Part shown: positions 13,785-60,085 of the stretch, piece by piece | How the letters are laid out: every line of letters begins with the position of its first letter | How positions within the stretch are numbered: position 1 is the first letter of the stretch | The notes under the pieces: model-generated | Database searches by the model: none | Told to the model about the DNA's origin: nothing | What the model saw: only the letters and a program-made list of their open reading frames with translations | Made by a program: the position numbers and the translations under genes | Source of the DNA: Myxococcota bacterium | Lineage (GTDB): Bacteria; Myxococcota; B64-G9 | Assembly (NCBI GenBank): GCA_022710975.1 | Contig: JAKLGA010000003.1 | Coordinates: forward strand, 434,001-498,000 | Length of the DNA: 64,000 bases | Direction of reading: 5' to 3'

Positions 13785-13800
13785 CGCCCAACCTGGGCCG

Positions 13801-15933: not shown

Positions 15934-16122
15934 GCGCATCTCCTCGGTTACTCCTCGGGCTCTGGGGGAGGATACACCGGATCCTCCCGTCCGTGCCACC
16001 TCCGGGCGTTGCCTCGCGGGGCCCCGGCGTGCTAACCATGGACCGGGCTGCGCCGGGTGAATGGCACGCGGCGCAGGTGCGTCTCTCCCTGAGGGGTGGG
16101 GGCTCCCCGAGGAGGCCAGTCC

Positions 16123-16965
16123 ATGTCGCTGCGTGTGCGTTCGCCGTGGGTCCTCGCGTTCGTGGCGCTGCCGCTGACCGCGCTGGCCGGTCCGTCGGCC
16201 GAGGTGCTGTACGCCCGCTCGAACGGGGATCTCGACCAGAACGAGGACCCGGCCAGGTACAGCGCGCTGCACGTGCTGGACGGCAAGCCCGAGACGGTGT
16301 GGTGCAGCGAGGGCTCGGGCCAGGACGCCATCCTCGAGGTGCAGTTCCTCAAGCGGGTGAGCATCGACAAGCTGGAGGTGGCCTCGGGCCACCAGGCCGG
16401 CGGCAAGTTCAAGGCCTACAACCGCCCGCGCCGGCTCGAGGTGACCGAGGCCGACATGGTCCACCCGCTCGAGCTGCGCGACAAGCCCGGGCGCCAGACG
16501 CTCGAGTTCGATCCGCCCCTGTCCACGGACCGGGTCATCTTCAAGTTCAAGTCCGGCTACAAGGGCGAGAACCGCCACCTGTGCATCGCCGACCTGGTCT
16601 TCATCCAGGGCAAGAAGCCGCTCAACGGGCCCAAGCTGAACCCCATCGGCAAGGGCGCCGTCGACAAGCGGCCGATCATGGACGCCTGGGTGTGTGGGCC
16701 GTCCTACTCCCCCAACCGCGAGCTCATCTTCGGCCTGGGCGAGACCTTCCGCTTCACCTACCTGCCCGCCGAGGACTCCGACGAGGCCATCCAGAAGACC
16801 GGCGCCTGGCGGGTGGAGGGCGGGGCGGTGCAGCTGAAGGAGGGCAAGGAGTGGCTCCCGGTCGAGGTGACGAAGGACGACGCCGGCCGGGTGGAGAAGG
16901 TCAGCCTCGAGGCCGAGCCCTTCAGCTGCTCCTACTCCCGCCGCACCCCCAGCTTCTTCCACTGA
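16123..16965 (+). CDS. Exported protein with NADase-type glycan-binding (discoidin-like) domain
   Basis: The 280-residue product has a signal peptide (about 1-22, ending TALA-GPSAE). The region 35-150 reads like a discoidin-type module: LHVLDGKPETVWCSEGSG, then ILEVQFLKRVSIDKLEVASGHQ and NRPRRLEV. This is the form called the NADase-type glycan-binding domain; no NADase catalytic domain is attached. Four cysteines (WCSE, HLCIAD, WVCGP, FSCSYS) could form disulfides. The remaining 120 residues are unassigned. Likely a carbohydrate-binding envelope or secreted protein. GAGGAGG lies before the ATG. Confidence 0.75.
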   Translation: MSLRVRSPWVLAFVALPLTALAGPSAEVLYARSNGDLDQNEDPARYSALHVLDGKPETVWCSEGSGQDAILEVQFLKRVSIDKLEVASGHQAGGKFKAYNRPRRLEVTEADMVHPLELRDKPGRQTLEFDPPLSTDRVIFKFKSGYKGENRHLCIADLVFIQGKKPLNGPKLNPIGKGAVDKRPIMDAWVCGPSYSPNRELIFGLGETFRFTYLPAEDSDEAIQKTGAWRVEGGAVQLKEGKEWLPVEVTKDDAGRVEKVSLEAEPFSCSYSRRTPSFFH

Positions 16966-17000
16966 GCCCGCCCCGCGCCGGCGGTCCCTCACCCCACCCG

Positions 17001-17030
17001 TTGTTCGCCGCCCGCGGCTCGTGGTAAGGT
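17001..17030 (+). promoter_or_regulatory. Possible promoter of pepT
   Basis: TTGTTC (17001-17006), an 18-bp spacer and TAAGGT (17025-17030) are a moderate sigma70 match 40 bp before the pepT ATG. Confidence 0.35.
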
Positions 17031-17070: not shown

Positions 17071-18339
17071 ATGGACGTGCGGAAGGACGTGCTGGAGCGT
17101 TTCCTGCGCTACGTGAAGGTGGACACCCAGTCCAAGGACGGGGTCGAGGATCGCTACCCCTCCACCCCGGGCCAGCTCGAGCTGTCGCGCCTGCTGGCCG
17201 GAGAGCTCGAGGCCCTCGGGCTCGAGGACGTGGAGCTGGACAGGAACGGCTACCTGTTCGCCACCCTGCCCGAGCGCGTGCCCGCGGGGGTGAAGCGCGC
17301 CGCCCGCGTCCCCACCGTGGGGCTGCTGGCCCACGTGGACACCTACCACGAGGTGAGCGGCAAGGACGTCTCGCCCATCATCCACCGCGACTACCGGGGC
17401 GGGCCGATCCAGCTCCCCAAGGCCCCGGACAAGACCCTCGAGCCGGCCGCGAACCCCGAGCTCCTGGCCTTCGTGGGCGACGACATCGTCACCTCGGACG
17501 GCTCCACCCTGCTGGGCGCCGACGACAAGGCCGGGGTGGCCGAGATCATGACGCTGCTGGCGCTCTACCGCGCCGATCCCGCGCTGCCGCACCCGCGCCT
17601 GCGCGTCGGCTTCACCCCCGACGAGGAGGTGGGCGGCGGCACGAAGTTCTTCGAGGTGAAGAAGTTCGCCGCGGACGTGGCCTACACCCAGGACGGCAGC
17701 GGCGTGGGCGAGGTGGAGGACGAGACCTTCTGCGCCGACACGGCCGTGGTGAGCTTCGAGGGCACCGACGTCCACCCGGGCTACGCCCGGGCGAAGATGG
17801 TCAACGCCGCGCGCCTCGCCGCGGCCTTCGTGGCCCGGCTGCCCGGGGACGCGGTGCCGGAGACCACCGACGGGCGCCAGGACTACCTGCACCCCTTCCA
17901 GGTGACCGGCAACGTGTCGAGCGCCCGGGTGACCTGCCTGGTGCGCTCGTTCAGCGAGGACGGGCTCAGGCGCATGGAGCGGGTGCTCGAGGCGGTCCGG
18001 GACGAGCTGCTGGCCGCGGAGCCCAGGGCGCGCATCCGCGTGGAGATCAAGGAGTCCTACCGCAACATGAAGGTGGTGCTGGATCGCCACCCCGACGTGG
18101 TGACCTACGCCGAGGACGCCATGCGCGCGCTGGGGGTGAAGCCCGCGCGCAAGGCCATCCGCGGCGGCACCGACGGCGCCCGGCTCTCCTTCCTGGGCCT
18201 GCCCACCCCGAACCTGTCGGCCGGCGGCTACAACTTCCACTCCGTGCAGGAGTGGGTGCCGGTGGGCGGCATGCAGCGCGCCGTCGAGGTGCTGGTGGCG
18301 CTCATGCGCCTGTACGTCGAGCGCGGCCTCGGCGCCTGA
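17071..18339 (+). CDS. pepT: Peptidase T (tripeptide aminopeptidase, M20B)
   Basis: The 422-residue product has the expected length. Zinc-site residues are present in order: His88 and Asp90 (LLAHVDTYHE), Asp151 (GADDKAGVAE), Glu185/Glu186 (TPDEEVGGG), Asp208 (YTQDGSG) and a C-terminal His (YNFHSVQEWVP). The substrate-binding GGTDGARLS segment is also there. It removes the N-terminal residue from tripeptides in the cytoplasm. AGGAGG is placed 7 bp before the ATG. The next gene begins 36 bp later. Confidence 0.95.
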   Translation: MDVRKDVLERFLRYVKVDTQSKDGVEDRYPSTPGQLELSRLLAGELEALGLEDVELDRNGYLFATLPERVPAGVKRAARVPTVGLLAHVDTYHEVSGKDVSPIIHRDYRGGPIQLPKAPDKTLEPAANPELLAFVGDDIVTSDGSTLLGADDKAGVAEIMTLLALYRADPALPHPRLRVGFTPDEEVGGGTKFFEVKKFAADVAYTQDGSGVGEVEDETFCADTAVVSFEGTDVHPGYARAKMVNAARLAAAFVARLPGDAVPETTDGRQDYLHPFQVTGNVSSARVTCLVRSFSEDGLRRMERVLEAVRDELLAAEPRARIRVEIKESYRNMKVVLDRHPDVVTYAEDAMRALGVKPARKAIRGGTDGARLSFLGLPTPNLSAGGYNFHSVQEWVPVGGMQRAVEVLVALMRLYVERGLGA

Positions 18340-18374: not shown

Positions 18375-20210
18375 ATGCCGGATCCCGTCAACAGCCTGGA
18401 CGACTTCCTGGGCAACGTGCTGCGGGGGGTGAACAAGATCGTCGGCTGCAACTCCACCAACCTGGTGGTGATCAACGAGCGCACCCAGGAGGTGCGCGTC
18501 CGGGTCGGGGTGAGCGCCGAGCAGTACGCCGCGCTGGGCGAGGTGGAGCGGGCGCTGGGCGAGACCCTGCGCGGCCTGAGCGTGCCCCTGCTGCGCGCGG
18601 CCGACAGCCTGGTCTACCGCTCCTGGCGGGAGGGGGCCGTGCTGGAGACCGGCTCGCTGGCCGAGATGGTCGGCGGCGCCTTCCCGGCCGAGGTGCTGGC
18701 CCAGTTCGAGCCGCTGATCGGCCCCCGCCGCTTCCTGCTGGCCCCGGCGGCCGGCGCGCACCGGCACTACGGCGTGCTGCTGTTCGAGAAGCCCGGCACC
18801 ACCCCCTTCAGCCGCCAGCAGCGCGAGCTGCTGATGCGCTACGCCCGGCGCATCGGCGAGATCATCGAGAACGACATGCGCGGCCAGCTCCCGCTGGCCT
18901 CCTCCGGCTCCCGCGAGGCGCACCTGCTGCTCGACGCGCAGGGCGAGCTCGAGGGCTTCGGCCCGGGGCCGGAGCCGCCCCTGTCCGGCCCGGCCCTCGA
19001 GCGGCTGCGGGCCGAGGCCAGGGCCTTCCTGGCGCCCGGCGAGGCCAGCCTGGCGCGCGAGCTCGTGCTCGAGGGCGGCACCCGCCTGCAGCTCCAGCGC
19101 TTCCGCTGCGGGGTGCGGACGCTGGCGCTGGCCGAGCTGGGGCAGGCGGCCGCGGCCGATCCGGCCGGGCTGGAGAGCCACCTGCTGCTGCTGACCCTGG
19201 GGGTGCCCGCCCCGGCCCTGTTCCTCGACCCGGAGCTGAACATCACCTCCTGCAACCCGGCCTGCGAGCGGCTGCTCGCCCGGGATGCGCGCGCGCTGGC
19301 CGGCCGGCCCATCCGCGAGCTGTTCGGCGCCCCGGAGGAGATCGTCGAGCTGCTCCGACGGCAAGCCTCCTCGCCCGAGGGCGTCAGCCAGCAGGAGACC
19401 GTGGGCCTGCGCCGCCGGGACGGCAGCCTGATGGCGGCCCGCCTGGAGAGCCTGCTGCTGGCCGACGATCACGACCGGGCGGTGGGCTTCCTGGTGCTGC
19501 TGCACGAGGCCGACAGCGACGAGCGCCTGGCGCCCGACCGGCTGGTGCAGCAGGAGCGCATGGCCACCATGGGCGAGATGGCCGCCCAGCTCGCCCACGA
19601 GGTGCGCAACCCCCTGGTCGCCATCGGCGCCACCCTGGAGGGCCTCGGCCGCGAGAGCCTGCCCGAGGAGCCCCGCCGGCTGGTGGCGGCAGCGCTGCGC
19701 GAGATCGGCCGGGTGGACATGATCCTCAAGAAGCACCTGTCGCCGCCCCGCGATCTCAGCTCCCGGCCGCTGCGGCTCGGCGAGGTGGTCCAGGAGGTGC
19801 AGCGCCTGCTCGAGGGCACCCGGCGCATGGGCGGCAAGCGCATCCGGCACGAGATCGACCCCGGGCTGGTGGTGCTGGCCGACTTCGACGCCCTGAAGCA
19901 CGTGCTGTTCAACCTCCTGCTCAACGCGCTGGAGGCCTCCCCGGCCGGCGGGGAGGTGGTCTGCCGGGTCGAGCTGCGCGAGCGCGAGCTGAGCATCCTG
20001 GTCGAGGACCAGGGCCCCGGCCTGGCCGCCCCGGTCGAGGACTGCCTGCGGCCGTTCTTCACCACCAAGCCCAACGGCACCGGCCTGGGGCTGGCGGTGA
20101 GCCACAAGATGGCCCAGGCGCTGGGGGGGCTCCTGCGCCTCAGGAACCGGCCCGCGGGCGGTTGCCTGGCCGAGCTGGTGCTGCCCCGGCGGGAAGGGAC
20201 GATCCCATGA
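18375..20210 (+). CDS. Soluble GAF-PAS sensor histidine kinase (NtrB-like)
   Basis: The 611-residue product has no membrane segment. A GAF-like domain lies at about 15-170, a linker follows, then a PAS domain at about 275-378 (FLDPELNITSCNPACERLL), a HisKA helix with His408 (LAHEVRNPLVAIG) and an HATPase_c domain (NLLLNALEA, DQGPGL, GTGLGLAVS). It should sense a cytoplasmic or membrane-derived signal and phosphorylate the NtrC-type regulator whose ATG overlaps its stop (ATGA). The closeness to a sigma54 operon for envelope transport suggests what it controls. Confidence 0.92.
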   Translation: MPDPVNSLDDFLGNVLRGVNKIVGCNSTNLVVINERTQEVRVRVGVSAEQYAALGEVERALGETLRGLSVPLLRAADSLVYRSWREGAVLETGSLAEMVGGAFPAEVLAQFEPLIGPRRFLLAPAAGAHRHYGVLLFEKPGTTPFSRQQRELLMRYARRIGEIIENDMRGQLPLASSGSREAHLLLDAQGELEGFGPGPEPPLSGPALERLRAEARAFLAPGEASLARELVLEGGTRLQLQRFRCGVRTLALAELGQAAAADPAGLESHLLLLTLGVPAPALFLDPELNITSCNPACERLLARDARALAGRPIRELFGAPEEIVELLRRQASSPEGVSQQETVGLRRRDGSLMAARLESLLLADDHDRAVGFLVLLHEADSDERLAPDRLVQQERMATMGEMAAQLAHEVRNPLVAIGATLEGLGRESLPEEPRRLVAAALREIGRVDMILKKHLSPPRDLSSRPLRLGEVVQEVQRLLEGTRRMGGKRIRHEIDPGLVVLADFDALKHVLFNLLLNALEASPAGGEVVCRVELRERELSILVEDQGPGLAAPVEDCLRPFFTTKPNGTGLGLAVSHKMAQALGGLLRLRNRPAGGCLAELVLPRREGTIP

Positions 20211-21637
20211 GCGCGACCTTCCGCGTGCTGGTCGTGGACGACGAGGAGCTGTACGCCCGCGCCATCGGCGCCGAGCTGGGCCGGCGGGGCATCGCGACGG
20301 AGCTCTGCTTCAGCGCCCGCGAGGCGCTGGCCCGGGTCGAGGCCGCCAGCTTCCAGGTCATCCTGCTGGACCACCGCCTGCCCGACGAGGACGGCCTGCG
20401 CCTCATCCCCCAGCTGCTGGCCCGCCAGCCGGGCGTGTCGCTGGTGATGATGACCGCCTACCACACCATCCCCAACGCGGTGGCGGCCATCCGCCGCGGC
20501 GCCGAGGACTACGTGGTCAAGGAGACCAGCATCCAGCCGCTGGTGGAGCGGGTGCTGGAGCTCGGGCGCCGGCTGGAGGCGCGCGCCGCCATGGCGGGCC
20601 CGGAGGGCTGGCAGGAGCACCGCAAGGGCGGGCTGCTGGGCCGCTCGCCGGGCGTGCTGCGGGTGCTGGAGCAGCTGCAGAAGGCCAGCCGCTCGCCCGA
20701 GACCACCGTGCTCTTGACCGGCGAGACGGGCGTGGGCAAGGAGGTGGCCGCGCGCCACCTGCACCAGCTCACCCGCCCGAAGAGCCCCTTCATCGCCGTG
20801 GACTGCGTGGCGCTGCCCACGAACCTGGCCGAGAGCATCCTGTTCGGGCACGAGAAGGGCGCCTTCACCGGCGCCGACCAGGCCCGGGCCGGGGCCTTCG
20901 AGGAGGCCGACGACGGCACCGTGCTGCTGGACGAGATCGGCGACATGGCCGATGAGCAGGGCAAGCTCCTGCGGGTCATGGAGAGCCGGGCCTTCACCCG
21001 GGTGGGCTCGGTGCGCGAGATCCCCCTCAAGGCGCGGGTGGTGGCGGCCACCAACCAGGACCTGGGCGAGCTGGTCAAGCAGGGCCGCTTCCGGCACGAT
21101 CTGTTCCAGCGCCTGTGCGTGTTCCCCATCCACATCCCGCCGCTGCGGGAGCGGGGGGAGGACGCGCTGCTGCTGGCCGAGCACTTCCTGTCGTTCTACG
21201 CCGGCAAGCTCGGCCGCGCGCTCGAGCCCCTGTCGGACGAGCTGCGCGAGCGGCTGCGCGACTACCCCTACCCGGGCAACGTGCGCGAGTTGAAGAACAT
21301 CATCGAGCGCGCGGTGATCATGGCCGACGGCGGGCGGCTCGAGCTCAGGCACCTGCCGGCGCGGGTGCTCGAGGCCAGCCCGGAGGGCGGCGCCAGGCCG
21401 GGGGCCGTGCCGGTCGACTTCCGCCCCGGGGTCGACACGCTCGAGTCCCTGGAGAAGCGCATGATCGAGCACGCCCTCAAGCAGGCCGGCGGGGTGAAGG
21501 CGGAGGCCGCCCGCATCCTGGGCATCAGCCGCTTCCAGCTCCTGCGGCGCCTCGAGCGCCACGGCCTGCTGCCCCCCCGGGAGGGGGCGGACAGCGGGGA
21601 CGGAGCCGAGCCCGGGACCGAGGATGGGGAGGGCTGA
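20207..21637 (+). CDS. NtrC-family sigma54-dependent response regulator
   Basis: The 476-residue product has a receiver domain (phospho-acceptor Asp55 in ILLDHRLPDEDG), an AAA+ domain (Walker A GETGVGKE about 172-179, GAFTGA at 218-223) and a Fis-type helix-turn-helix (KAEAARILGISRFQLLRRL). In the receiver the helix-4 region reads VVKETSIQP, with the conserved Lys kept. It is coupled to the GAF-PAS kinase by an ATGA overlap. The first sigma54 promoter after it is 139 bp downstream, ahead of the MMPL transporter, which makes that operon the most likely target. Confidence 0.94.
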   Translation: MSATFRVLVVDDEELYARAIGAELGRRGIATELCFSAREALARVEAASFQVILLDHRLPDEDGLRLIPQLLARQPGVSLVMMTAYHTIPNAVAAIRRGAEDYVVKETSIQPLVERVLELGRRLEARAAMAGPEGWQEHRKGGLLGRSPGVLRVLEQLQKASRSPETTVLLTGETGVGKEVAARHLHQLTRPKSPFIAVDCVALPTNLAESILFGHEKGAFTGADQARAGAFEEADDGTVLLDEIGDMADEQGKLLRVMESRAFTRVGSVREIPLKARVVAATNQDLGELVKQGRFRHDLFQRLCVFPIHIPPLRERGEDALLLAEHFLSFYAGKLGRALEPLSDELRERLRDYPYPGNVRELKNIIERAVIMADGGRLELRHLPARVLEASPEGGARPGAVPVDFRPGVDTLESLEKRMIEHALKQAGGVKAEAARILGISRFQLLRRLERHGLLPPREGADSGDGAEPGTEDGEG

Positions 21638-21666
21638 CCGGCCGGCGCGATCGTTCGGATTCGAAC

Positions 21667-21688
21667 GCGCGTGCGGTTCCGCACGCGC
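21667..21688. promoter_or_regulatory. Palindrome, candidate NtrC-type activator site
   Basis: Arms GCGCGTGCGG and CCGCACGCGC flank TT, a perfect 10-bp inverted repeat. It lies about 115-135 bp before the predicted sigma54 start, typical for an upstream activator site. A second inverted repeat, CGTTCG-N4-CGAACG, abuts it at 21652-21667. It begins 30 bp after the regulator stop with no T-run, so a terminator reading is possible but weaker. Confidence 0.55.
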
Positions 21689-21724
21689 CTCCCGACGCGC
21701 GCCCGGCCCGCCCCCCTGACGCCA

Positions 21725-21740
21725 TTCCAGCCGGCTGGAA
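21725..21740. promoter_or_regulatory. Perfect 16-bp palindrome near a sigma54 promoter
   Basis: TTCCAGCCGGCTGGAA is fully self-complementary and lies about 60-77 bp upstream of the predicted start, followed by an A/T-rich stretch (AAAAGAAGGTTAAATT) that could aid DNA bending. It may be a second activator or co-regulator site. Confidence 0.5.
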
Positions 21741-21775
21741 AAGAAGGTTAAATTCGCGATTTCGGCCGGGCCGCC

Positions 21776-21791
21776 TGGCATGTCCCTTGCT
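21776..21791 (+). promoter_or_regulatory. Sigma54 (-24/-12) promoter of the MMPL/LolA-like operon
   Basis: TGGCATG-tccc-TTGCT matches the consensus TGGCACG-N4-TTGCW with one mismatch in the -24 box and the exact 12-bp GG-to-GC spacing. The predicted start near 21802 gives a leader of about 50 nt to the ATG at 21850. Confidence 0.85.
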
Positions 21792-21849
21792 ACCTGCCAT
21801 CGAGCCCCCAGCTTCCCGGACGGTCCGGGCGGAATCGAGCGGGTGAAGG

Positions 21850-24735
21850 ATGCGACCCATGCACGTGCTGTCACAGTTCATCTCGAACAAGTGGGCGGCC
21901 TGGACCCTGATCCTGGCGGTCCTGGTGGTCTCGGGCGTCGGGGGCTTCCTGGCCTCGCGGGTCGAGCAGGACGACGACCTGCTGGCCTTCCTGCCCCAGG
22001 GCAACCCGGAGGTGGCCACCTTCAACGAGCTGGCCGAGCAGTTCGGCTCGCTCGACGTGGCCATGATCGGCGTCCCGACCGAGGACCCGTTCGACGCCGA
22101 CTTCCTCACCCGCCTGTCCGCCGCGACCACCGAGATCAAGGAGACGCGCGGGCTGAGGTACGCCCTCAGCCTGACCAACGTGGTGGACTTCACCGCCGAC
22201 GAGGTGAACGGCGGCGTGGTGACCGCGGCGCTGGTGCGCGAGATCCCGCGCACCCCCGGCGAGAAGGCCGAGCTCCAGGCCCGGGTCATGTCGCGCGACC
22301 ACGTGGTCGGCAACCTGGTCTCCCGCGACGGCAAGGCGGTCATGATCTACGGCTTCCTGGCCCAGGGCGCCGATCCGCGCGGCACGACCGCCCAGCTCCA
22401 GGCCATCGCGGCCAGGCACTTCCCGGATCGCGAGCTGCAGTGGGGCGGCAACCCCTTCATCTCGTCCTACATCTACGACACGGCGCAGAACGACCTGCGC
22501 CGCCTGACCCCCTGGGCGGTGCTGGTGATCACCCTGCTGATGCTGGTGGCGCTGCGCGACGTGGTGGGCACGCTGCTGGGGCTGTTCTCGACCGCGCTGG
22601 CCATCGGCGTCGGCATGGGGGTGATGCAGGTCTTCGGGGTGAAGCTGAACGTCATGCTGGGCTCGGTGCCCATCGTGCTGTTCGCCATCGGCTCGTCCTA
22701 CGCCATCCACATGCTGTCGCGCTTCTACGATCTGCTGCAGCGCCACGACGGCAACGAGGCGGTGGCGCGCACCCTGACCGGCACCGGGCCGGTGGTGCTG
22801 ATCGCCGGGGTGACCTCGGCCGCGGCCATCATGTCGTTCCTGGCCATGGACATCGTCCCCATCCGCGAGTACGGCCTGTTCACCGGCATCGGCATCCTGA
22901 TCACCATGGTCTTCGCGCTCACCTTCATCCCCGCGGCGCTCAGGCTCTGCAACTTCAAGCGGCGGCCGCTGGGCAAGCCCAGCGCCGCCCGCCGCTGGAT
23001 GGTGCGCGTGGCGGTCTTCTGCCAGTCCCGGCGCCTGCCGGTGGGCGCCAGCCTGGCGATCACCGCGCTGGTGTTCGGCCTGCTCATCTCCCGCGTGCAG
23101 ACCGGCGTCGATCAGCGCACCTTCTTCCACGACGACAGCTCGCCCGCGCGCGCGGACCGCTTCCTGCGCGATCACTTCGGCGCGGCGCAGTTCGTCCAGG
23201 TGCTGGTCAAGGGCGACATGACCGACCCGGCCGTGCTGGCCGAGGTGCAGGCGCTGGCCGATCGCTTCGAGACCGTGCCGCACGTCACCGGGGTGCAGCA
23301 GGTGGCCCAGCTCGTCGCCATCCTCAACGAGGCCATGACCGGCGAGCTCCGCATCCCGGACACGGCGGCCCAGGTCTCCAACCTGTACCCCTTCACCCTG
23401 GGCGATCCCTCGGCCGGCCAGATGGTGACCGAGAACCGCAAGCAGGCGCTGCTGCAGGTCAAGGTGGACACCAGCGACGCCCGCGAGGTCGGCCGGGTGC
23501 TGGCGGACATCGAGCGCCTGGTGGCCGAGACCGGCCTGGCGCGCTTCGAGGCGGTCGAGGTCGGCGCCGGCCCCCGGGACGCCGAGGCCCGCGCCCGACG
23601 CGAGGCCCACCTGGTGGCCCGCCTGGCCCGCCTGGCCACCGCGGCCGGGCTGACGCCACCGGCCGACGCCGCCCCGCGCGTGGCGGGCTTCCTGGCCGGG
23701 GACGGGGCGGCGATCGACACCGCGCCCGTGGCCCGCAACCTGGAGCGCTTCCTGCGCTCGGGCGAGAGCGCGATCGAGCTGCCCGCGGCCAGGGACGGCG
23801 TGGACGTGGCCAGGGAGCTGGCCCGGGCGGTGATCGCCCTGGGGCCCAGGCCGGCCGAGGAGCCGCTGCGGGCCGCGGTCGTCCAGGCCCTGGCCGTCCC
23901 GGCGGACGACCCGTCGGTGGACGACCTGCTGCTGTCGCTCGAGACCGCCGTGCGGGACGCGTGGCGCCGGGAGGGCGCCAGCCAGCGGGCCGAGCGCCTG
24001 CTGGGGGCCCTGGCGCTCTCGCCGCGCCCGGGCCCGACCGCGGAGCGTCTGCGCTCCCGCACCGCCATGGCGCTGCTGTCCCTCGAGCGGCCCGGGGTGC
24101 TGCTGCCCGCCTCCGGCGCGCAGCCCGAGGGGCCGGGGCTGGACATCCAGGTCAGCGGCATGCCGGTGCTGAACCGGGGCCTGGCCAAGAGCGTGGAGCA
24201 CAACCAGATCCGCAGCCTGGTGGTGGCGGTGGCCCTGGTGTTCGTGCTGCTGGCGCTCATGTTCCGCTCGGTGCTGGCCGGGCTGCTGGCCATCGTGCCG
24301 ACGCTGTTCACCCTCGTGGTCATCCACGGGGTGATGGGCGGTTGGCGCATCCAGCTCGATCTGGGCACGTCGCTCCTGGGCAGCCTGATCCTGGCCAACG
24401 GCGTGGACTTCGCCGTGCACCTGCTGGCCACCTGGCAGGCGGGCGAGTCCGGCAAGCTCTCCCGCGCGGCGGCCACGGCCGCCGACCGCACCGGGCCCGC
24501 GATCTGGACCACGGCCCTGGCCATGTTCGTGGGCTTCTTCGTGCTGACGCTCGGCGACGCCAAGCCGCTGCAGAACGTGGTCGCGCTGAAGGCCACCGCC
24601 ATGATCGTCGGCGCGGCCGCCTCCTTCCTGCTGGTGCCGGTGCTCGCCCGGCGCAAGCGCTACCCGCTGCTCAACGAGCCCGCCGAGGCCGCCGAGGAGT
24701 CGGAGGCCGTGGAGTCCGCGCTGCAGGAGAGCTGA
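21850..24735 (+). CDS. MMPL/RND-family transporter (putative lipid exporter)
   Basis: The 961-residue product has the two-fold RND/MMPL layout: a membrane segment near the N-terminus, a periplasmic domain, a block of membrane segments at about 215-365, one near 400, a large second periplasmic domain of about 370 residues with a helical insertion, and a final membrane block at about 790-935. Family members move lipids or hydrophobic molecules using the proton gradient. A second ATG at 21859 has better spacing from GAAGG and may be the true start. It is the first gene of a sigma54-driven operon with a LolA-like protein and a barrel. Confidence 0.9.
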   Translation: MRPMHVLSQFISNKWAAWTLILAVLVVSGVGGFLASRVEQDDDLLAFLPQGNPEVATFNELAEQFGSLDVAMIGVPTEDPFDADFLTRLSAATTEIKETRGLRYALSLTNVVDFTADEVNGGVVTAALVREIPRTPGEKAELQARVMSRDHVVGNLVSRDGKAVMIYGFLAQGADPRGTTAQLQAIAARHFPDRELQWGGNPFISSYIYDTAQNDLRRLTPWAVLVITLLMLVALRDVVGTLLGLFSTALAIGVGMGVMQVFGVKLNVMLGSVPIVLFAIGSSYAIHMLSRFYDLLQRHDGNEAVARTLTGTGPVVLIAGVTSAAAIMSFLAMDIVPIREYGLFTGIGILITMVFALTFIPAALRLCNFKRRPLGKPSAARRWMVRVAVFCQSRRLPVGASLAITALVFGLLISRVQTGVDQRTFFHDDSSPARADRFLRDHFGAAQFVQVLVKGDMTDPAVLAEVQALADRFETVPHVTGVQQVAQLVAILNEAMTGELRIPDTAAQVSNLYPFTLGDPSAGQMVTENRKQALLQVKVDTSDAREVGRVLADIERLVAETGLARFEAVEVGAGPRDAEARARREAHLVARLARLATAAGLTPPADAAPRVAGFLAGDGAAIDTAPVARNLERFLRSGESAIELPAARDGVDVARELARAVIALGPRPAEEPLRAAVVQALAVPADDPSVDDLLLSLETAVRDAWRREGASQRAERLLGALALSPRPGPTAERLRSRTAMALLSLERPGVLLPASGAQPEGPGLDIQVSGMPVLNRGLAKSVEHNQIRSLVVAVALVFVLLALMFRSVLAGLLAIVPTLFTLVVIHGVMGGWRIQLDLGTSLLGSLILANGVDFAVHLLATWQAGESGKLSRAAATAADRTGPAIWTTALAMFVGFFVLTLGDAKPLQNVVALKATAMIVGAAASFLLVPVLARRKRYPLLNEPAEAAEESEAVESALQES

Positions 24736-24771
24736 ACCTTACCTGGCCCTTCAACCTCTGAGAGGTCCCCC

Positions 24772-25530
24772 ATGCACAAGAGTCTCGCTGTGTCCCTCTT
24801 CCTCGGCCTGCTGGCCTGCGCCGCCCTGCCCGGGCCCGCCGCCGCCGAGGAGCTCGACGGCGACGCGATCCTGGCCCTGATGGACAAGGCCCACACCCAG
24901 GCCAAGGATCAGTTCTTCGTGTTCGACGTGGTCACCGAGGAGGCCGGCAAAGCCGCCCGCTCCCTGCGCTTCCAGGTCACGCTGAACAACAAGAGCTGGC
25001 GCATGGTGCACTTCCTCGACCCCGGAGACGTGAAGGACATGCGCGTGCTGACCATGGACACCAGCCGCATCTGGCTGTGGCTGCCGGCCTTCAAGAAGGT
25101 GCGCAAGATGGCCTCCCACGCCAAGGCCCAGGGCTTCATGGGCACGGCGCTGTCCAGCGAGGACACCTCCATGGTGACCTACGGCGACCTGTTCCAGGGC
25201 AAGCTCCTGTCCCAGGACGACAAGATCTGGACCGTGGAGGGCACGCGGCGGGAGGGCGCGGACGTGGCCTACGCCAAGATCGTGTTCGAGATCCGCAAGG
25301 ACATCAAGATGCCCCCGGCGCTGCACTACTTCAACGACAAGGGCGTCGAGGTGAAGACCGAGACCCGCACCTCCTACGAGTGCAAGGACGGGCTGTGCAA
25401 CCCCCGGGTGATGACCATGATCGACCACACCCGCGGGGACATCAAGTCCACCATGGTGCGCCGTGACTGGAAGTACAACCAGGGCGTGGACGACTCGTTC
25501 TTCACCGTGCGCGCGCTCCAGCGCGGCTGA
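24772..25530 (+). CDS. LolA-like outer-membrane lipoprotein-sorting protein 1
   Basis: The 252-residue product has a signal peptide (VSLFLGLLACAALPGPAAA) and a LolA/LppX-type half-barrel sequence: ALMDKAHTQAKDQFFVFDV, VTLNNKSWRMVHFLDPGDVKDMRVL, then the hallmark RIWLWLPAFKKVRKM. Proteins with this domain carry lipids or lipoproteins through the periplasm and often sit next to MMPL transporters. Two cysteines in YECKDGLCN may pair. It follows the transporter by 36 bp. A close paralogue lies at 27559-28299. Confidence 0.88.
   Translation: MHKSLAVSLFLGLLACAALPGPAAAEELDGDAILALMDKAHTQAKDQFFVFDVVTEEAGKAARSLRFQVTLNNKSWRMVHFLDPGDVKDMRVLTMDTSRIWLWLPAFKKVRKMASHAKAQGFMGTALSSEDTSMVTYGDLFQGKLLSQDDKIWTVEGTRREGADVAYAKIVFEIRKDIKMPPALHYFNDKGVEVKTETRTSYECKDGLCNPRVMTMIDHTRGDIKSTMVRRDWKYNQGVDDSFFTVRALQRG
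25057..25127 (+). repeat. 71-bp exact repeat, copy 1 (inside LolA-like gene 1)
   Basis: This segment is identical to 27829-27899 in LolA-like gene 2 and encodes DTSRIWLWLPAFKKVRKM and following residues. Identity over 71 bp, including third codon positions, exceeds what the flanking sequence shows. Confidence 0.85.
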
Positions 25531-25557
25531 TCCGGCACCCGTGCGGAGGCTCCCGTG

Positions 25558-27459
25558 ATGAAGACGACCCAGGGCTGGCTCTCTCTCCTCGCCTGCCTGC
25601 TCGCCGCCTCGGCCTGCCCGGCCTGGGCCCAGGACGAGGACACCCCCTCCGATCTGGACGAGCCGTTCGTCGATCCCCTGGCCGGCAAGCTCCAGCCCGC
25701 GCCCATGCCGGGCAGCGAGCCCGCGGCCGAGGAGGGCGTGCCCAGCTTCGACACCGACAAGTTCCAGCTCACCTGGGGCGGGCGGGTGCAGACCGATCTG
25801 CGCTTCCGGGTGATCGGCAAGCGGATGGGCAGCTACTACACCCGGCCCGAGGCGCCCTACGGGCCCTTCGAGGCGCCCACCGGCGTGTCGCGCAACGAGA
25901 ACACCTTCAAGCTGAAGCTGGACGCGGTCTATGGCCGCTTCGGCGCCAAGCTGGACATGGACTTCGTCTACCTGGGCATGCCGGACAAGGTGAACGGGGT
26001 CGAGGACCTGTCCGAGCGTGGCAAGGTGGATCCGTTCTACCTGCAGGCCCACGCGGCCTACATCGAGGCCACGGATCTGTTCTTCGACGGCCTCGACCTG
26101 CGGGTCGGCCAGCAGCTCGTGCAGTGGGGCATGGCCGACCAGTTCAACCCCACCAACAACCTGAACTCGGCCGACATGGAGGACATCCTGCTGTTCGGCG
26201 AGCAGATGGCCAACCTCATGGTCAAGCTCGACTACAGCCCGCTGGACTCGCTGACGCTCTCCGGCGTGCTGGTGCCCATCTACAAGCCCGCGCTGCTCCC
26301 GCGCACCGGCCCCCTGGCGCTGGCCGCCAGCGACCGCATGCCCATGTCCGAGACGAGGCTTCGCCACAGGTTGATCTTCGAGAAGGCGCTGGGCTCGGAT
26401 CTGGCCGGTTACGAGACCGTGGTGGCCACCGCCTCGCCCATCCTGCCCGACACCTCTTTCGAGAACATGCAGGCCGGCGGGCGCATCGGGCTCAGCACCG
26501 ACTGGATCGACGCGGCGCTGTCCTACTACTACGGCCGCAACGACTTCCCGGTGCCCATGCGGAACTACACGGTGCAGGACGCCACGATCATCTGCGACCC
26601 GGACAACGGCGCGGACTGCATCTCCGGACGCCTGATGACCGAGGTCTCGCTCACCTACCCGCGCCAGCACGTGTTCGGGCTGAACGCGGCCGGCGAGATC
26701 CCCCTGGACTGGATGGTGGATCAGCTCGGCGGCATCGGCTGGCGCCTGGAGCTGGGCGTGTACCTGCCCGAGAAGATCCGCATGGAGCTCAGCCAGGCCG
26801 AGATCACCCTGGCCGGCCAGGTCCAGCCGGCGGGCGAGTACGACTACGACGGCGACGGGCAGCCCGGCGGGCCGCGGCCCACCGTGGTGGACGACCAGCC
26901 CTTCGTCAAGTGGACGCTCGGCCTGGACTACAGCTTCGGCCGCTGGGTGTACCTGAACCTCATGTGGGTGCACGGCATGGTGGACGAGTTCGGGGCCGGG
27001 GACTTCTTCTCCGAGGGCTGGAACGTGCGCCAGAGCGGGCTCATGGAGGGCACCGAGGGCGAGATCCTGCCCTGCCTGCTGGCGAACGCGCGCGAGGTGT
27101 GCGGCGAGCGCATGGCCCACGAGGTGTTCCGGCCCAAGATCGGCGACTACCTGGCGGTGGTCATCGACACCAAGTTCCTCGAGGACCGCGGCCTTTTCCG
27201 CCTGTTCTTCATGTGGGACCTCAGCGGCTACTACGAGAGCTTCTACGACGAGGCGCAGGGCAAGCGGGTGCAGAAGTACCTGAGCCTGTTCGGCGACGGC
27301 TTCTCCGCCATCCTGTACCCCGAGCTCGACTACAACTTCGGCAACGGCCTCGAGCTCAGCGTGGGCGCGCTGTTCCAGTTCGGGAAGGACTACACCAAGT
27401 TCGGCGATCCGGCCGCGGGCGGCTCGCTGGTGTGGACCCGCGCGCGCTACTCCTGGTGA
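25558..27459 (+). CDS. Outer-membrane beta-barrel protein, DUF1302-like
   Basis: The 633-residue product has a signal peptide ending CPAWAQ and an acidic linker. A long series of alternating aromatic/polar strands starts at FQLTWGGRVQTDLRF. The segment GQQLVQWGMADQFNPTNNLNSAD is like the DUF1302 family signature (WGxxDxFNPxNxLNP). The last residues, TRARYSW, end in an aromatic as barrels do. DUF1302 proteins often accompany MMPL transporters. ATG 25558 is preferred to GTG 25555 because GGAGG is 8 bp away. It could be the outer-membrane end of the transporter-LolA path. Confidence 0.7.
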   Translation: MKTTQGWLSLLACLLAASACPAWAQDEDTPSDLDEPFVDPLAGKLQPAPMPGSEPAAEEGVPSFDTDKFQLTWGGRVQTDLRFRVIGKRMGSYYTRPEAPYGPFEAPTGVSRNENTFKLKLDAVYGRFGAKLDMDFVYLGMPDKVNGVEDLSERGKVDPFYLQAHAAYIEATDLFFDGLDLRVGQQLVQWGMADQFNPTNNLNSADMEDILLFGEQMANLMVKLDYSPLDSLTLSGVLVPIYKPALLPRTGPLALAASDRMPMSETRLRHRLIFEKALGSDLAGYETVVATASPILPDTSFENMQAGGRIGLSTDWIDAALSYYYGRNDFPVPMRNYTVQDATIICDPDNGADCISGRLMTEVSLTYPRQHVFGLNAAGEIPLDWMVDQLGGIGWRLELGVYLPEKIRMELSQAEITLAGQVQPAGEYDYDGDGQPGGPRPTVVDDQPFVKWTLGLDYSFGRWVYLNLMWVHGMVDEFGAGDFFSEGWNVRQSGLMEGTEGEILPCLLANAREVCGERMAHEVFRPKIGDYLAVVIDTKFLEDRGLFRLFFMWDLSGYYESFYDEAQGKRVQKYLSLFGDGFSAILYPELDYNFGNGLELSVGALFQFGKDYTKFGDPAAGGSLVWTRARYSW

Positions 27460-27558
27460 AGCGGCCTGTTTGAAGCGATCAGTTTGTATTATTCTTAGAT
27501 ATCAACCACTTGCGTGTCTGGGCCGGTCGGGCTACGCTCCTCGGCAGGAGGGCGAGCC

Positions 27559-28299
27559 ATGCGGACATGCCTGTGGCTCCTCGCGGCGGTGCTGCTTCTC
27601 TGCGGGGCGGCGCGCGCGCAGGCGCCGGACGGAGACGCGCTCATCGCGCGCATGGACCGGATCCACACCACCGCCCAGGACCAGTACTTCGAGTACGACC
27701 TGGTCACCGAGGAGGCCGGCAAGCAGCCCCGCGGCCTGAGCTTCGCGGTGACCCTCAACTCGAAGAAGTGGCGGCACGTCCAGTTCCTGGCGCCGGGCGA
27801 CGTGAAGGGCATGCGCGTGCTGACCCTCGACACCAGCCGCATCTGGCTGTGGCTGCCGGCCTTCAAGAAGGTGCGCAAGATGGCCTCCCACGCCAAGGCG
27901 ACCAGCTTCATGGGCACGGCCATGTCCAGCGAGGACGGCTCGGTGGTGACCTACGGGGATCTGTACGCCGGCAGGCTGGTGGGGGAGGACGCCGAGAGCT
28001 GGAAGGTCGAGGGCACGCGGCGCGAGGGCGCGGACATCAGCTACGCGCGCATGCTGTTCGAGCTGCGCAAGGACATCGGCCTGCCCTCCGCCTTGCACTA
28101 CTTCAACGACCAGGGCGTCGAGGTGAAGACCGAGCTGCGCCAGTCCTACGACTGCCGGGACGGCCTGTGCAACTCGCGCGTGTTCGTGATCACCGACCAC
28201 CAGCGCGGACTGAAGACCACCATGGTCCGGCGCACCTGGAGGTACAACCAGGGGGTCGAGGACGCCTACTTCAGCGTGCGGGCGCTGCAGCGCGGCTAG
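27559..28299 (+). CDS. LolA-like outer-membrane lipoprotein-sorting protein 2
   Basis: The 246-residue close paralogue of the gene at 24772 has the same signal peptide plus LolA-like half-barrel layout, the same RIWLWLPAFKKVRKM core and the same YDCRDGLCN cysteine pair. The two share 71 identical base pairs. It lies 100 bp after the barrel gene across an AT-rich stretch, so it may be the last gene of the sigma54 operon or have its own promoter. AGGAGGG precedes the ATG. Its stop overlaps the convergent DUF1648 gene by 4 bp (CTAG). Confidence 0.88.
   Translation: MRTCLWLLAAVLLLCGAARAQAPDGDALIARMDRIHTTAQDQYFEYDLVTEEAGKQPRGLSFAVTLNSKKWRHVQFLAPGDVKGMRVLTLDTSRIWLWLPAFKKVRKMASHAKATSFMGTAMSSEDGSVVTYGDLYAGRLVGEDAESWKVEGTRREGADISYARMLFELRKDIGLPSALHYFNDQGVEVKTELRQSYDCRDGLCNSRVFVITDHQRGLKTTMVRRTWRYNQGVEDAYFSVRALQRG
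27829..27899 (+). repeat. 71-bp exact repeat, copy 2 (inside LolA-like gene 2)
   Basis: This is identical to 25057-25127. See that entry; together they point to recent duplication or gene conversion. Confidence 0.85.
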
Positions 28300-28889
28300 C
28301 CTTCCCCCGGCGCCCTCGCCAGCGCCCTCCGCATGGCCCGCATCAGGCAGAGCCCCGCCACCACCAGCACCCCGCCCTCGACCGCCAGGAAGAGCCACAC
28401 CGGCGGCACCTCGTACCCGGGCCCGCCCTCGATGGCCGCCTTGTAGATGGTGGCCTGGGCCCAGCAGATGAGCCCCTGGGGCGGCAGGGCGAGCCAGGCC
28501 GGCAGGGCCTCGAGCTGGCGCCAGACCGGCTCCTGCCGCCCGGGCGGCAGGGCCAGGAGCTCGGCCTTGCGGGGCAGGTTGAGGTAGCGCGGGTGGCGCC
28601 GGGCCGAGCGCATGATCGCCAGGCCGCCCAGCGCGATCAGCACGAAGATCCCCACCGCGGTCAGCGGCATGGCCAGGGCGGTGAGCCAGCTCGTCTCGGC
28701 CCAGCCGTTGGGCGTCCCGTCCGAGAGGAAGTGGATGGGCAGCCGCTCGGGCAGCCGGTGGCGCCGGACCAGCGACCACACGAACAGCCCCACCAGCGTC
28801 AGCGCGTGGAGCGCGAGCGCGATGGCCAGCGGCGAGACGCCGCGCGGCACGGCGGCGGGCTCGCCGGGCCGGGCCAGAGTCGCGCGCAT
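28296..28889 (-). CDS. DUF1648-domain membrane protein
   Basis: The 197-residue product has four hydrophobic segments (about 19-40, 67-90, 125-145 and 158-180). Between the first two lies the DUF1648 signature LPERLPIHFLSDGTPNGW, found in SdpI-like and related membrane proteins. The function is unknown. The ATG at 28889 is chosen because GAGGAGG lies 7 bp upstream. It diverges from the NAPRTase gene. Confidence 0.8.
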   Translation of the reverse strand: MRATLARPGEPAAVPRGVSPLAIALALHALTLVGLFVWSLVRRHRLPERLPIHFLSDGTPNGWAETSWLTALAMPLTAVGIFVLIALGGLAIMRSARRHPRYLNLPRKAELLALPPGRQEPVWRQLEALPAWLALPPQGLICWAQATIYKAAIEGGPGYEVPPVWLFLAVEGGVLVVAGLCLMRAMRRALARAPGEG

Positions 28890-28984
28890 GGATGGCCTCC
28901 TCGGGTGTCCGGACAGCGCCGGTCCGGCCCAGCATAGCAAAGCCCCCCGGTCGGCGGTAGGCTCGGCGGGCAGGAGGAGGGCGG

Positions 28985-30457
28985 ATGCAACCACGGGACT
29001 CGGGCGGGCTGGGGCTGCTGACCGATCTGTACCAGCTCACCATGGCCTACGGCTACTGGAGGCTCGGGCGGCAGGAGCAGGAAGCGGTCTTCCAGCTGTG
29101 CTTCCGCCGGAACCCCTTCGGGGGCGGGTACGCGCTGGCGGCCGGGCTGGAGGACGCGCTCGCCTTCCTGGAGGGCTTCGGCTTCGCCCGCGACGATCTC
29201 GACTACCTGGCCACCCTGACCGGCAACGACGGCGCGCCGCTCTTCGAGCCGGGCTTCCTCGACTACCTCGGGGGGCTCCGTTTCGGCTGCAGCGTGGAGG
29301 CCGTCCCGGAGGGCAGCGTGGTGTTCCCGCACGAGCCGCTGCTGCGGGTGCGCGGCCCGGTGCTCCAGGCCCAGCTCGTCGAGAGCGCGCTGCTGTGCCT
29401 GGTGAACTTCCAGACGCTCGTCGCCACCAAGGCCGCGCGGGTGTGCCAGGCCGCGCGCGGCGAGCCGGTGCTGGAGTTCGGCCTGCGCCGGGCCCAGGGC
29501 GTGGACGGGGCGCTGTCGGCCTCGCGGGCGGCCTACCTGGGCGGCTGCGCGGCCACCTCCAACGTGCTGGCAGGCAAGCGCCTCGGCATCCCGGTGCGCG
29601 GCACGCACGCGCACTCCTGGGTGATGCTGTTCGACGGCGAGCGCCAGGCCTTCGAGGCCTACGCCGACTGCCTGCCCAACAACTGCGTGTTCCTGGTGGA
29701 CACCTACGACAGCCTGGCGGGCGTGCGCCAGGCCATCGAGGTGGGCCGTGCGCTGCGCGCGCGCGGGCACGAGCTGGTCGGGGTGCGCCTGGACTCCGGG
29801 GACCTGGCCTACCTGAGCCAGGAGGCGCGGAAGCTCCTGGACGCGGCCGGCTTCCCCCGGGCGGTGGTGGTCGCCTCCAACGATCTCGACGAGCACACCA
29901 TCCAGAGCCTCAAGGGCCAGGGGGCGGCCATCGCGGTCTGGGGGGTCGGCACCCGCCTGGTGACCGGGCACCCCGACGGGGCGCTGGGCGGGGTGTACAA
30001 GCTCTCGGCCGTGCGCGCGCAGGACGGCAGCTGGCAGCCGCGGGTGAAGCTCAGCGAGCAGGCCGTCAAGGTGACCAACCCGGGCATCCTCCAGGTGCGC
30101 CGCTTCCGCGGGCCCGCGGGCTTCGAGGCGGACGCCATCTGGGACGAGTCGCGGCCCCCGCCCGCGGAGTGGGAGATCGTCGACCCGCTCGACCCCACCC
30201 GGCGGAAACGCCTGCCGGTCGACGCGCCGTACGCGGATCTCCTGGTCCCGGTGCTGGCTGGCGGGCGGCGGGTGGGCGCGCCCGGCACGCTCGAGGAGGC
30301 CCGCGCGCGGGCGGCCGCCGAGCTGGCCTCGTTCCACGCCGGGGTGAAGCGCTTCCTGAACCCGCACCGCTACCCGGTCGGGCTGGAGCGCGGGCTGCAC
30401 GAGCGCAAGACCGAGCTCGTGCTCCAGGCCCGGGGGCTCCCGCTTCACACTTCGTAA
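28985..30457 (+). CDS. pncB: Nicotinate phosphoribosyltransferase
   Basis: The 490-residue cytoplasmic enzyme joins nicotinate and PRPP to nicotinate mononucleotide in NAD salvage. Family motifs in order are [15 protein letters not shown] at the start, [15 protein letters not shown] with the conserved His-free loop, [12 protein letters not shown] (catalytic His region), [12 protein letters not shown] (ribose-phosphate binding) and [17 protein letters not shown] stands before the ATG. It is not linked to other NAD genes here and appears to be a single-gene unit. Confidence 0.95.
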
Positions 30458-36221: not shown

Positions 36222-36312
36222 GGTGCCTCCGTGGCTGGGCGCCTCACTCGTTAGCACCGTTCGAGGTCGGGGGCAAGGCGGTCAGGGGCGCCCGCGCCGG
36301 GGCCCGGCGGGC

Positions 36313-37143
36313 TCAGCCGCCGTACTTCTTCTCGGCGGCCCCGAACAGGGCGGCGTCCACGGGCACGATGCGGGTGAGGTGCATCTCGGCGCAGATGGCC
36401 TTGCCCTTCTCCCCGTCGCACACCTGGAGCAGCCCCTTGACCAGGGCGTCCCGCTCCGCGGCCGGGAGGGCGTCGCCGAGGACCACCACCGGGATGGGGG
36501 GCAGGGGCGCCGAGGCGTGGATGGAGCGCAGCTCCTTCCCCCCGGTCATCTCGCGCGCCTTGGCGAGCTGGCTGTCGTCGAGCGTGGTGGCGTCGCACTC
36601 GCCGCGCAACACGCCCCGCACGCCCTTGAGGGCCTGGCGCACGGGCTTGAGCTTCCAGGCCTTGGCGGCGTCCACCTGGCCATCGAGCACCACCGCCGTC
36701 AGGTAGCGGGGGTACTCCCCGAGCGTCGAGCACACCCGCTTGCCGGCCAGGTCGGCCAGCGCCTTGAGGGCCGGGTCCTTGACCACCACGTGCAGCCGCG
36801 GGGTGATGAGCTCGGCGCTCTCGACCTGCAGCACGGGCTTGAGCTGGAGCTGCTGGCGGAGCTCGAAGTACAGCGGCGGCTCGAGCAGGGCCAGACCCGG
36901 CTTGACCTCGGCCAGGTAGCCGGTGGTGGCCTTCCTGGAGGTCAGGAACTTCCCGGCCAGCGAGCTGGCCGGCCAGCCGATGGCCCCCTCCAGGTGGCGC
37001 AGGAAGCGATCGAGGAAAGGCTGGGCCGTGGCGGTGTCCCCGCCGAGGCGGGTCACGTGGATGGCCACGTCGTGGGGACCGGCCTGGGCGGCGCTCGCCC
37101 ACAGGCCGAGCAGCGCAGCGGCGGCTAGCAAGCCAGCTCGCAT
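36313..37143 (-). CDS. PhnD-like periplasmic substrate-binding protein
   Basis: The 276-residue product has a signal peptide ending SAAQA-GPHD and the layout of phosphate/phosphonate-type (PhnD, PF12974) binding proteins. FLDRFLRHLEGAIGW is followed by the lysine-rich first lobe and the hinge segment DLAGKRVCSTLGEYPRYLTAVVL, which includes the typical AGKRV motif. No ABC permease or ATPase gene is nearby. Within this operon it may bind a small ligand or lipid headgroup for sensing or transport. AGGAGG precedes the ATG. Confidence 0.7.
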   Translation of the reverse strand: MRAGLLAAAALLGLWASAAQAGPHDVAIHVTRLGGDTATAQPFLDRFLRHLEGAIGWPASSLAGKFLTSRKATTGYLAEVKPGLALLEPPLYFELRQQLQLKPVLQVESAELITPRLHVVVKDPALKALADLAGKRVCSTLGEYPRYLTAVVLDGQVDAAKAWKLKPVRQALKGVRGVLRGECDATTLDDSQLAKAREMTGGKELRSIHASAPLPPIPVVVLGDALPAAERDALVKGLLQVCDGEKGKAICAEMHLTRIVPVDAALFGAAEKKYGG

Positions 37144-37168
37144 GGGAGTCCTCCTGGGTGGGGATCGT

Positions 37169-41884: not shown

Positions 41885-41894
41885 GCGTGAGCGG

Positions 41895-50361: not shown

Positions 50362-50369
50362 GTGTTCCC

Positions 50370-51188: not shown

Positions 51189-51195
51189 GCGGGCC

Positions 51196-51777
51196 TCACT
51201 TCTTGCGGCCGGGGGAGGCCCCGGCCTGGGCAGGTTTCTTGGCGAACAGCAACTCGAGGAACAGCAGCGCCACCCCGACGCTGATGCCGATGTCCGCGAT
51301 GTTGAAGGTCGGCCAGTGGTGCTCGCCGGCCGACAGGGTGGTGAGCCCCAGATCGAGCGGCGAGTCGAAGCGCACGTACCAGTCGATGAAGTCGACCACC
51401 CGCCCCTGGTAGATGCGGTCGATCAGGTTGCCCACCGCCCCGGCCAGCACCAGCGCGAAGGCCACCGGCAGCAGGCGCTTGTCCTCCTCCATGCGCCGCA
51501 CGAAGTAGAGGATCAGCCCGATGGCCAGCAGGGTGACCACGATGAAGAAGGGGATGCGCACGGCCGGGGACCAGGCGTTGCCCAGGCCCCAGGCCGCGCC
51601 GGCGTTCTCCGCGTACTTCAGGCGGAAGAAGCCGTCGATCACCGTCAGGAAGCGCTCGCCCGGGTCGGGCGCGGAGACCAGCGGCTGCAGGCCGATCTTG
51701 GCCGCGATCTTGGTGGCCTGATCGGCCAGCACCACCGCCGGGACGGTGATGGCCAGGATGAGGTACTTGGTCTTCAC
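51196..51777 (-). CDS. lspA: Lipoprotein signal peptidase (signal peptidase II)
   Basis: The 193-residue product is slightly longer than usual (about 160). It has four membrane segments and the family motifs DQATK (19-23), NAGAAWGL (about 58-65), GNLIDRIYQGRVVDFIDW with the first catalytic Asp, and FNIADIGISVG with the second. It cleaves the signal peptide of diacylated prolipoproteins in the inner membrane. The start is GTG, 7 bp after the ileS stop. Its position between ileS and lgt gives a compact lipoprotein-maturation operon. Confidence 0.96.
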   Translation of the reverse strand: MKTKYLILAITVPAVVLADQATKIAAKIGLQPLVSAPDPGERFLTVIDGFFRLKYAENAGAAWGLGNAWSPAVRIPFFIVVTLLAIGLILYFVRRMEEDKRLLPVAFALVLAGAVGNLIDRIYQGRVVDFIDWYVRFDSPLDLGLTTLSAGEHHWPTFNIADIGISVGVALLFLELLFAKKPAQAGASPGRKK

Positions 51778-51784
51778 CGCGCCC

Positions 51785-57412: not shown

Positions 57413-60085
<2,673 letters not shown>

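Follow-up and report, generated by a model that had tools for sequence, protein, structure and literature searches.

The stretch of DNA analyzed here, which we call the window, comprises 64,000 nucleotides of a Myxococcota bacterium (assembly GCA_022710975.1, contig JAKLGA010000003.1; G000:C23:434001-498000 in our numbering, with all positions below given relative to the window unless another contig or locus is named). The genome is 7.13 Mb in length, and its named relatives by sequence belong to the Myxococcota or "Deltaproteobacteria". The window contains a two-component system, a sigma54 promoter and a four-gene transport cassette, which an earlier reading of the DNA (hereafter the original prediction) had described as a regulated path for a lipid or other hydrophobic compound across the cell envelope. 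New in the present analysis are a tandem enhancer upstream of the promoter, the rest of the regulon that shares this enhancer, a link from it to an oxidosqualene-type cyclase cluster elsewhere in the genome, and a bst-like operon in the window.

The first gene of the cassette (21850-24735, + strand) encodes an MMPL/HAE3-type resistance-nodulation-division (RND) inner-membrane transporter of 961 amino acids, with 12 hydrophobic segments, a match to PF03176 (E 7e-39) and a match to the HAE3 model TIGR00921 (1.8e-66) that falls under the curated cut-off. It is followed on the same strand by a periplasmic carrier of the LolA_like/DUF1329 type (LolA1; 24772-25530; PF17131, E 7e-34) with two conserved cysteines, C204 and C209, by a DUF1302-like outer-membrane beta-barrel (25555-27459), and by a second LolA_like carrier (LolA2; 27514-28299; PF17131, E 1e-30), the start of which is possibly the ATG at 27559. 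The protein families and the barrel model agree with the predicted order of MMPL, LolA-like, barrel and LolA-like genes, with the DUF1302 assignment being marginal (PF06980, 23.8 bits against a cut-off of 23.2). In its AlphaFold model, the 25555-27459 protein is a large outer-membrane barrel (predicted local distance difference test, pLDDT, of 82) with weak similarity to porins and AlgE. The LolA1 model (pLDDT 92) has its nearest folds in 4z48, 3bk5 and 9tp6, with template modeling (TM) scores of ~0.8, versus TM scores of ~0.36-0.49 with lipoprotein-carrier LolA. Two LolA-like proteins are present as anticipated, but both belong to the DUF1329/LolA_like branch and not with lipoprotein-carrier LolA. 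LolA2 is 66% identical to LolA1, and no LolA2 gene adjoins the cassette in any of the relatives whose downstream DNA was examined; it was seen in the window genome only and is a lineage-specific duplicate of LolA1. The operon should end at 28299, because the next open reading frame (ORF; 28296-28994) lies on the opposite strand and overlaps the LolA2 gene at its 3' end.

Upstream of the cassette, also on the + strand, are the genes for a soluble GAF-PAS histidine kinase of 611 amino acids (HK1; 18375-20210) and an NtrC-type sigma54 activator (RR1; 20207-21637). As predicted, the start of the RR1 gene overlaps the HK1 stop via an ATGA. HK1 has GAF_3 (~7-166), PAS (~277-378), HisKA and HATPase_c domains, and no clear transmembrane helix was found in it. 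RR1 has Response_reg, Sigma54_activat and HTH_8 domains, the last being of the Fis-type helix-turn-helix, and its recognition helix is GISRFQLLRRL. The window genome has a single copy of rpoN.

Between RR1 and the MMPL gene lies the near-consensus sigma54 promoter of the original prediction, TGGCATGTCCCTTGCT (21776-21791, + strand), which matches 11 of the 12 consensus positions of the -24/-12 elements and has a predicted start near 21802. Its score was equalled by none of 2000 dinucleotide shuffles, and it is the sole site of at least 11/12 in the 64 kb window. Alignment of the upstream DNA from the seven regulator-bearing genomes revealed two 14-bp palindromes in tandem, GTKCG-N4-CGMAC, embedded in DNA that has otherwise diverged and located ~100-145 bp before the predicted start. 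In the window these conserved, predicted enhancer sites (upstream activating sequences, UAS) are UAS1, GTTCGGATTCGAAC (21653-21666), and UAS2, GTGCGGTTCCGCAC (21671-21684), the only two sites in the window that score 10/10. Five of the seven genomes have a spacing of exactly 18 bp between the two starts; G008 has weaker sites at a spacing of 19 bp and G006 has only one well-scoring site. A perfect palindrome at 21725-21740, TTCCAGCCGGCTGGAA, was also considered as an NtrC site and was dropped as it is not conserved. The locus has by its sequence the elements of a sigma54/NtrC operon, namely a -24/-12 promoter, an upstream enhancer and a gene for a bacterial enhancer-binding protein, and regulation of the cassette by sigma54 and NtrC is well supported.

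The relatives available for comparison are mostly metagenome-assembled, and one assembly (G001) is just 70% complete. MMPL relatives in genome contigs were retrieved with an alignment query; a single-sequence query gave none. The gene order MMPL, LolA-like, barrel recurred in dozens of loci, mostly from Myxococcota, including Polyangium and the cultured cholesterol producer Minicystis rosea, in which the cassette (L140) is present without the regulator. More distant versions were found in other phyla, and additional, more distant MMPL/LolA_like cassettes are present in the window genome. Apart from the second LolA gene, the gene order is conserved, in support of the original prediction. In the loci that were examined, a kinase-NtrC pair adjoins the cassette only in the window's family, with HK1 orthologues in G004-G008 and in G001, where the gene is truncated by the contig end. 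A promoter of at least 10/12 precedes the MMPL gene in 7/7 genomes with the pair and in 0/7 without it (G002 and G003 within the family, and five more distant cassettes). No close RR1 orthologue was found anywhere in G002 or G003, where the best full-length match had 37-40% identity. Gain or loss of the promoter together with the pair is supported by these distributions; in a regulator tree with outgroups, the RR1 copies were poorly resolved. As a separate observation, a 56%-identical MMPL gene at L164:722-3515 is split over two frames and has neither a LolA nor a barrel gene beside it; it may represent an assembly error or a decaying copy.

Searches for the enhancer in combination with the promoter gave 24 matches in nine genomes, compared to 5 for a reversed control, and zero matches in the two genomes without the regulator. 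No enhancer-promoter pairs occurred in 1,384,226 bp of other loci used as background, or in ~148 kb of control loci from the window genome. In that genome the targets include, besides the cassette, a radical-SAM and glycosyltransferase operon (L121:5230-7607, - strand), a lipase-like gene with a weak Pfam match (L120), and an EGF-repeat lipoprotein (L228:9281-12211, - strand). Radical SAM and EGF-lipoprotein genes are repeat targets in G005 and G007, and related EGF-repeat lipoproteins, each behind an enhancer and a sigma54 promoter, are present in three genera (L228 as above; L122:2230-4272; L125:86-3400, - strand). The matches in G004 and G005 fall in an isoprenoid cluster with genes for farnesyl diphosphate (FPP) synthase, a 3-deoxy-D-arabino-heptulosonate 7-phosphate (DAHP) synthase/chorismate mutase, a U32 protein and an oxidosqualene-type cyclase, and in G004 also for 3-hydroxy-3-methylglutaryl (HMG)-CoA synthase. 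An enhancer-like match on contig C48 of G007 was dropped, having two mismatches, a position inside a predicted ORF and no promoter near; one on C49 of G005 has a weaker promoter only, under a relaxed pattern; and one on C72 of G006 faces genes unrelated to this theme and may be due to chance.

The cyclase of the window genome was located independently of the motif, by a hidden Markov model search, at C7:111192-113081. Its cluster (L253:13172-18558 and L254:3805-5241, contig C7) contains genes for HMG-CoA synthase, then the cyclase, the U32 protein, the DAHP synthase/chorismate mutase and FPP synthase, and then IDI2, mevalonate kinase, HMG-CoA reductase, a squalene-synthase-like protein and an NtrC paralogue, RR2. 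Scored in the same way as the background, the 32 kb of this cluster contain three enhancer-promoter units, although the + unit at the junction of the FPP synthase and IDI2 genes overlaps the predicted IDI2 start and is less sure. An enhancer-promoter unit precedes the mevalonate-FPP-cyclase cluster in all three cyclase-bearing genomes of the family (G000, which is the window genome, G004 and G005). The C7 cyclase, which carries a DCTAE motif, is closer to oxidosqualene cyclase than to squalene-hopene cyclase, scoring 746.7 bits with TIGR03463 (the curated cut-off of 851 being unreached) versus 230.7 bits with the hopene cyclase model. Its homologue in G004 scored 577 bits with lanosterol synthase versus 155 bits with squalene-hopene cyclase. 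RR2 is 60% identical to RR1 and in the window genome has an identical recognition helix, with M in place of L in some relatives. Within the family, RR2 was found only in G000, G001, G004 and G005, and in two of these, G000 and G005, its gene is part of the cyclase cluster. A second GAF-type kinase is encoded beside its regulator in the cyclase clusters of G005 and G020.

Genes resembling those of a known sterol transporter are also found close to the cassette. A bst-like operon on the - strand (33636-38005) lies ~5 kb past it, with the bstB- and bstC-like genes 8-10 kb downstream. The last gene of this operon (33636-36257) encodes a second HAE3/MMPL RND transporter that matched TIGR00921, matched HpnN weakly and did not match the BstA model. 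The other two encode a BstB-like periplasmic binding protein (36313-37143; NF045601, 114.6 bits, below the cut-off of 350) and a BstC-like outer-membrane lipoprotein (37169-38005; NF045602, 232.6 bits, cut-off 350; E 7e-45 to BstC, PDB 7t1s). In G003, G005 and G006, a complete bstABC operon faces the cassette in convergent orientation, with scores of 1094-1158 bits for BstA (cut-off 1400), 319-343 for BstB and 280-290 for BstC (cut-offs 350), and a BstB-like gene is immediately upstream of the MMPL gene in G025 and G031. The cassette itself gave no Bst matches: the 21850 MMPL protein did not match NF045600, and the LolA-like and barrel proteins had no NCBIfam match. No enhancer-promoter unit was found upstream of the bst operons checked (window, G003, G005 and G006), and by eye the operon in the window is preceded by a TTGACA-type (sigma70-like) promoter. 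In cyclase clusters of other myxobacteria, MMPL-family genes occur near those for the cyclase and squalene epoxidase (L275:14599-16851 and L273:14204-16480, both - strand).

We favor, with about even confidence, the hypothesis that the products of the sigma54-dependent operon at 21850-28299 carry a cyclic triterpenoid (sterol-type) lipid across the cell envelope in a regulated way. HK1 would control RR1, which would bind the tandem enhancer at 21653-21684 and activate the promoter at 21776. The MMPL pump would then lift a hydrophobic molecule out of the inner membrane, the DUF1329/LolA-type proteins would ferry it across the periplasm, and delivery to the outer membrane, or through it, would fall to the barrel. 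In this organism the cargo would most likely be a sterol-type lipid or a glycosylated derivative. This is because the enhancer-promoter unit precedes both the cyclase cluster and the radical-SAM/glycosyltransferase operon. The starting points of this hypothesis, that is, the gene content, promoter, enhancer, co-inheritance of the pair, the enhancer common to the cyclase cluster and the bst neighbors, are supported by comparative sequence data, and we infer from them that RR1 binds DNA, which way the lipid moves and what the cargo is. A partial precedent is BstABC of Methylococcus capsulatus (PMC10942540), in which an MMPL-family inner-membrane protein also has periplasmic and outer-membrane partners, for sterols. 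Unlike in that system, the periplasmic partner of the cassette is of the LolA/DUF1329 type instead of a PhnD-type BstB, and its barrel is not a BstC lipoprotein. The regulator pair, enhancer, promoter and cassette together represent a testable candidate for joint control of bacterial sterol synthesis and traffic.

Several observations weigh against this hypothesis. Because the cassette promoters themselves served to define the enhancer motif, it is the C7 cyclase cluster that tests it best independently, and the regulator of that cluster may be RR2 instead of RR1. The cassette and regulator are present in G006, G007 and G008, all of which are without an oxidosqualene-type cyclase, and the cassette alone is present in many Myxococcota and other phyla. 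A sterol therefore cannot be the sole cargo of the family. In addition, genome searches did not find squalene epoxidase (PF08491) in G000, G004 or G005, which makes the product of the cyclase uncertain; the same model does detect an epoxidase in G025, and four other genomes have one close to the cyclase. Lastly, the functions linked to characterized relatives of the cassette are export of monoterpenes and use of Tween 20, with sterols not among them, and in the DUF1302/DUF1329 papers, which gave functions only, no sterol link was found.

An alternative is that the pump expels toxic, membrane-damaging hydrophobic compounds in general, the role proposed for AmeABCD of Castellaniella defragrans, and that the enhancer marks a membrane-stress regulon with lipid synthesis as one of several responses. 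AmeABCD likewise combines an HAE3 RND transporter, a DUF1302 barrel and a DUF1329/LolA-superfamily protein in one cassette for hydrophobic cargo, and its deletion lowers monoterpene tolerance and raises Nile Red accumulation (PMC6394551). The parts of such a cassette are present here (the DUF1302 match being the marginal one), but in another gene order, with the MMPL gene first, and with a sigma54/NtrC regulator pair and a second LolA copy; no gene for AmeC (COG4447) lies between 21850 and 28299. Toxic-compound export fits the occurrence of the cassette in cyclase-free genomes, but taken alone it leaves unexplained both the bst neighbors and the presence of a rare enhancer-promoter unit at mevalonate, FPP and cyclase genes, and we consider it a serious but unlikely alternative. 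Those cyclase-free genomes, which have the regulator as well as the cassette and in the case of G007 also the radical SAM target, could also be explained by a cargo common to all carriers, such as a hopanoid, carotenoid, polyprenyl glycoside or other isoprenoid or glycolipid, with the cyclase cluster having acquired the enhancer later. HpnN hopanoid transporters belong to the same HAE3 RND branch and have a polycyclic triterpenoid cargo, although the match is weak (85 bits versus a cut-off of 752) and HpnN has been described as acting with no partners for the periplasm or outer membrane encoded in its operon (PMC6394551). The cyclase cluster represents the only candidate synthesis genes found under the enhancer, and a shared cargo of another kind seems to us rather improbable.

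RND/MMPL pumps of known direction are exporters, and the regulon holds genes for synthesis and not for breakdown. Both points argue against a role in importing lipids (fatty acids, alkanes or sterols) from outside via the barrel and LolA-type proteins, driven by the MMPL pump or its proton gradient, which we regard as quite improbable. Some data do favor such uptake: the Pseudomonas putida DUF1302/DUF1329 genes PP_0765/0766 and pump genes PP_2018/2019 are required for growth on Tween 20 (PMC10866462), an MMPL-LolA fusion protein of Thalassolituus was up 42-fold on n-C28 (PMC6304351), and the regulon includes the lipase-like gene. The P. putida genes also use DUF1302 and DUF1329 proteins jointly with a transporter, but, unlike the cassette, they are at two loci, are linked to Tween 20 use and have no sigma54 regulon described for them in PMC10866462. 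The name of the PF17131 family, "outer membrane lipoprotein-sorting protein", would be in keeping with a private lipoprotein-sorting route replacing LolCDE-LolA, and the original prediction had proposed that the path could act without the usual Lol proteins. That part of it was not supported. The periplasmic proteins belong to the DUF1329/LolA_like branch, as in AmeABCD, with the modeled fold of LolA1 distant from carrier LolA, no LolCDE-type ABC transporter gene is within the operon, known relatives handle small hydrophobes, and nothing indicates a lipoprotein cargo, making such sorting extremely improbable. The more general proposal, that a lipid or other hydrophobic compound crosses the envelope by a regulated path, fits our data.

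The composition of the cyclase cluster raised a further possibility with regard to synthesis of the proposed sterol-type cargo. The U32 protein and the DAHP synthase/chorismate-mutase fusion are encoded close to the cyclase in G000, G004, G005 and G020, and cyclases of this U32-associated type cluster together with 83/96 support. Cysteines 181, 185, 211 and 215 of the U32 protein are invariant in four sequences, giving CX3CX25CX3C, where the U32 pattern sought was CX6CX15CX3C-like, and Pfam PF01136 matches part of the protein only. The fusion enzyme would be expected to make prephenate. Hydroxylation by U32 oxidases does not require O2, and when ubiquinone is made anaerobically prephenate is reported to supply the oxygen (PMC11574389, PMC10470549). 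Since no squalene epoxidase was found in the cyclase genomes while the cluster has a U32 protein and a predicted prephenate-making enzyme, synthesis may not need O2, and the gene content suggests an O2-independent route to an oxidosqualene-like substrate. The full form of this idea, in which U32 and prephenate from the fusion enzyme replace the epoxidase to make a sterol-type lipid without O2, and paired sigma54 regulators co-induce its synthesis and a dedicated MMPL-LolA-barrel route to the outer membrane, is tentative and on balance unlikely. In a search covering part of the literature, we found no paper joining U32/prephenate oxidation with an oxidosqualene-type cyclase. A survey of sterol-making bacteria reported no anaerobe with a cyclase and left an alternate pathway in an anaerobe possible (PMC4919349). 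If true, O2-free formation of oxygenated triterpenoids would matter for how fossil steranes are read as evidence of oxygen.

A few additional features of the window were noted. Upstream of HK1 is a gene for a PepT-like M20 peptidase (17071-18339, + strand; Pfam Peptidase_M20), which is also at the matching place in relatives of the family and which we do not regard as part of the system. The region 5' of it (~13800-17030) encodes a secreted-type protein (16096-16965) and, on the minus strand, a protein that contains PAEKPAEP-type repeats, and look-alikes of these genes are at the equivalent place in G005 and G006. Strong AT skew (0.25-0.46) was observed at 40001-42000, 50001-52000 and 58001-60000, with the rest of the window being fairly even.

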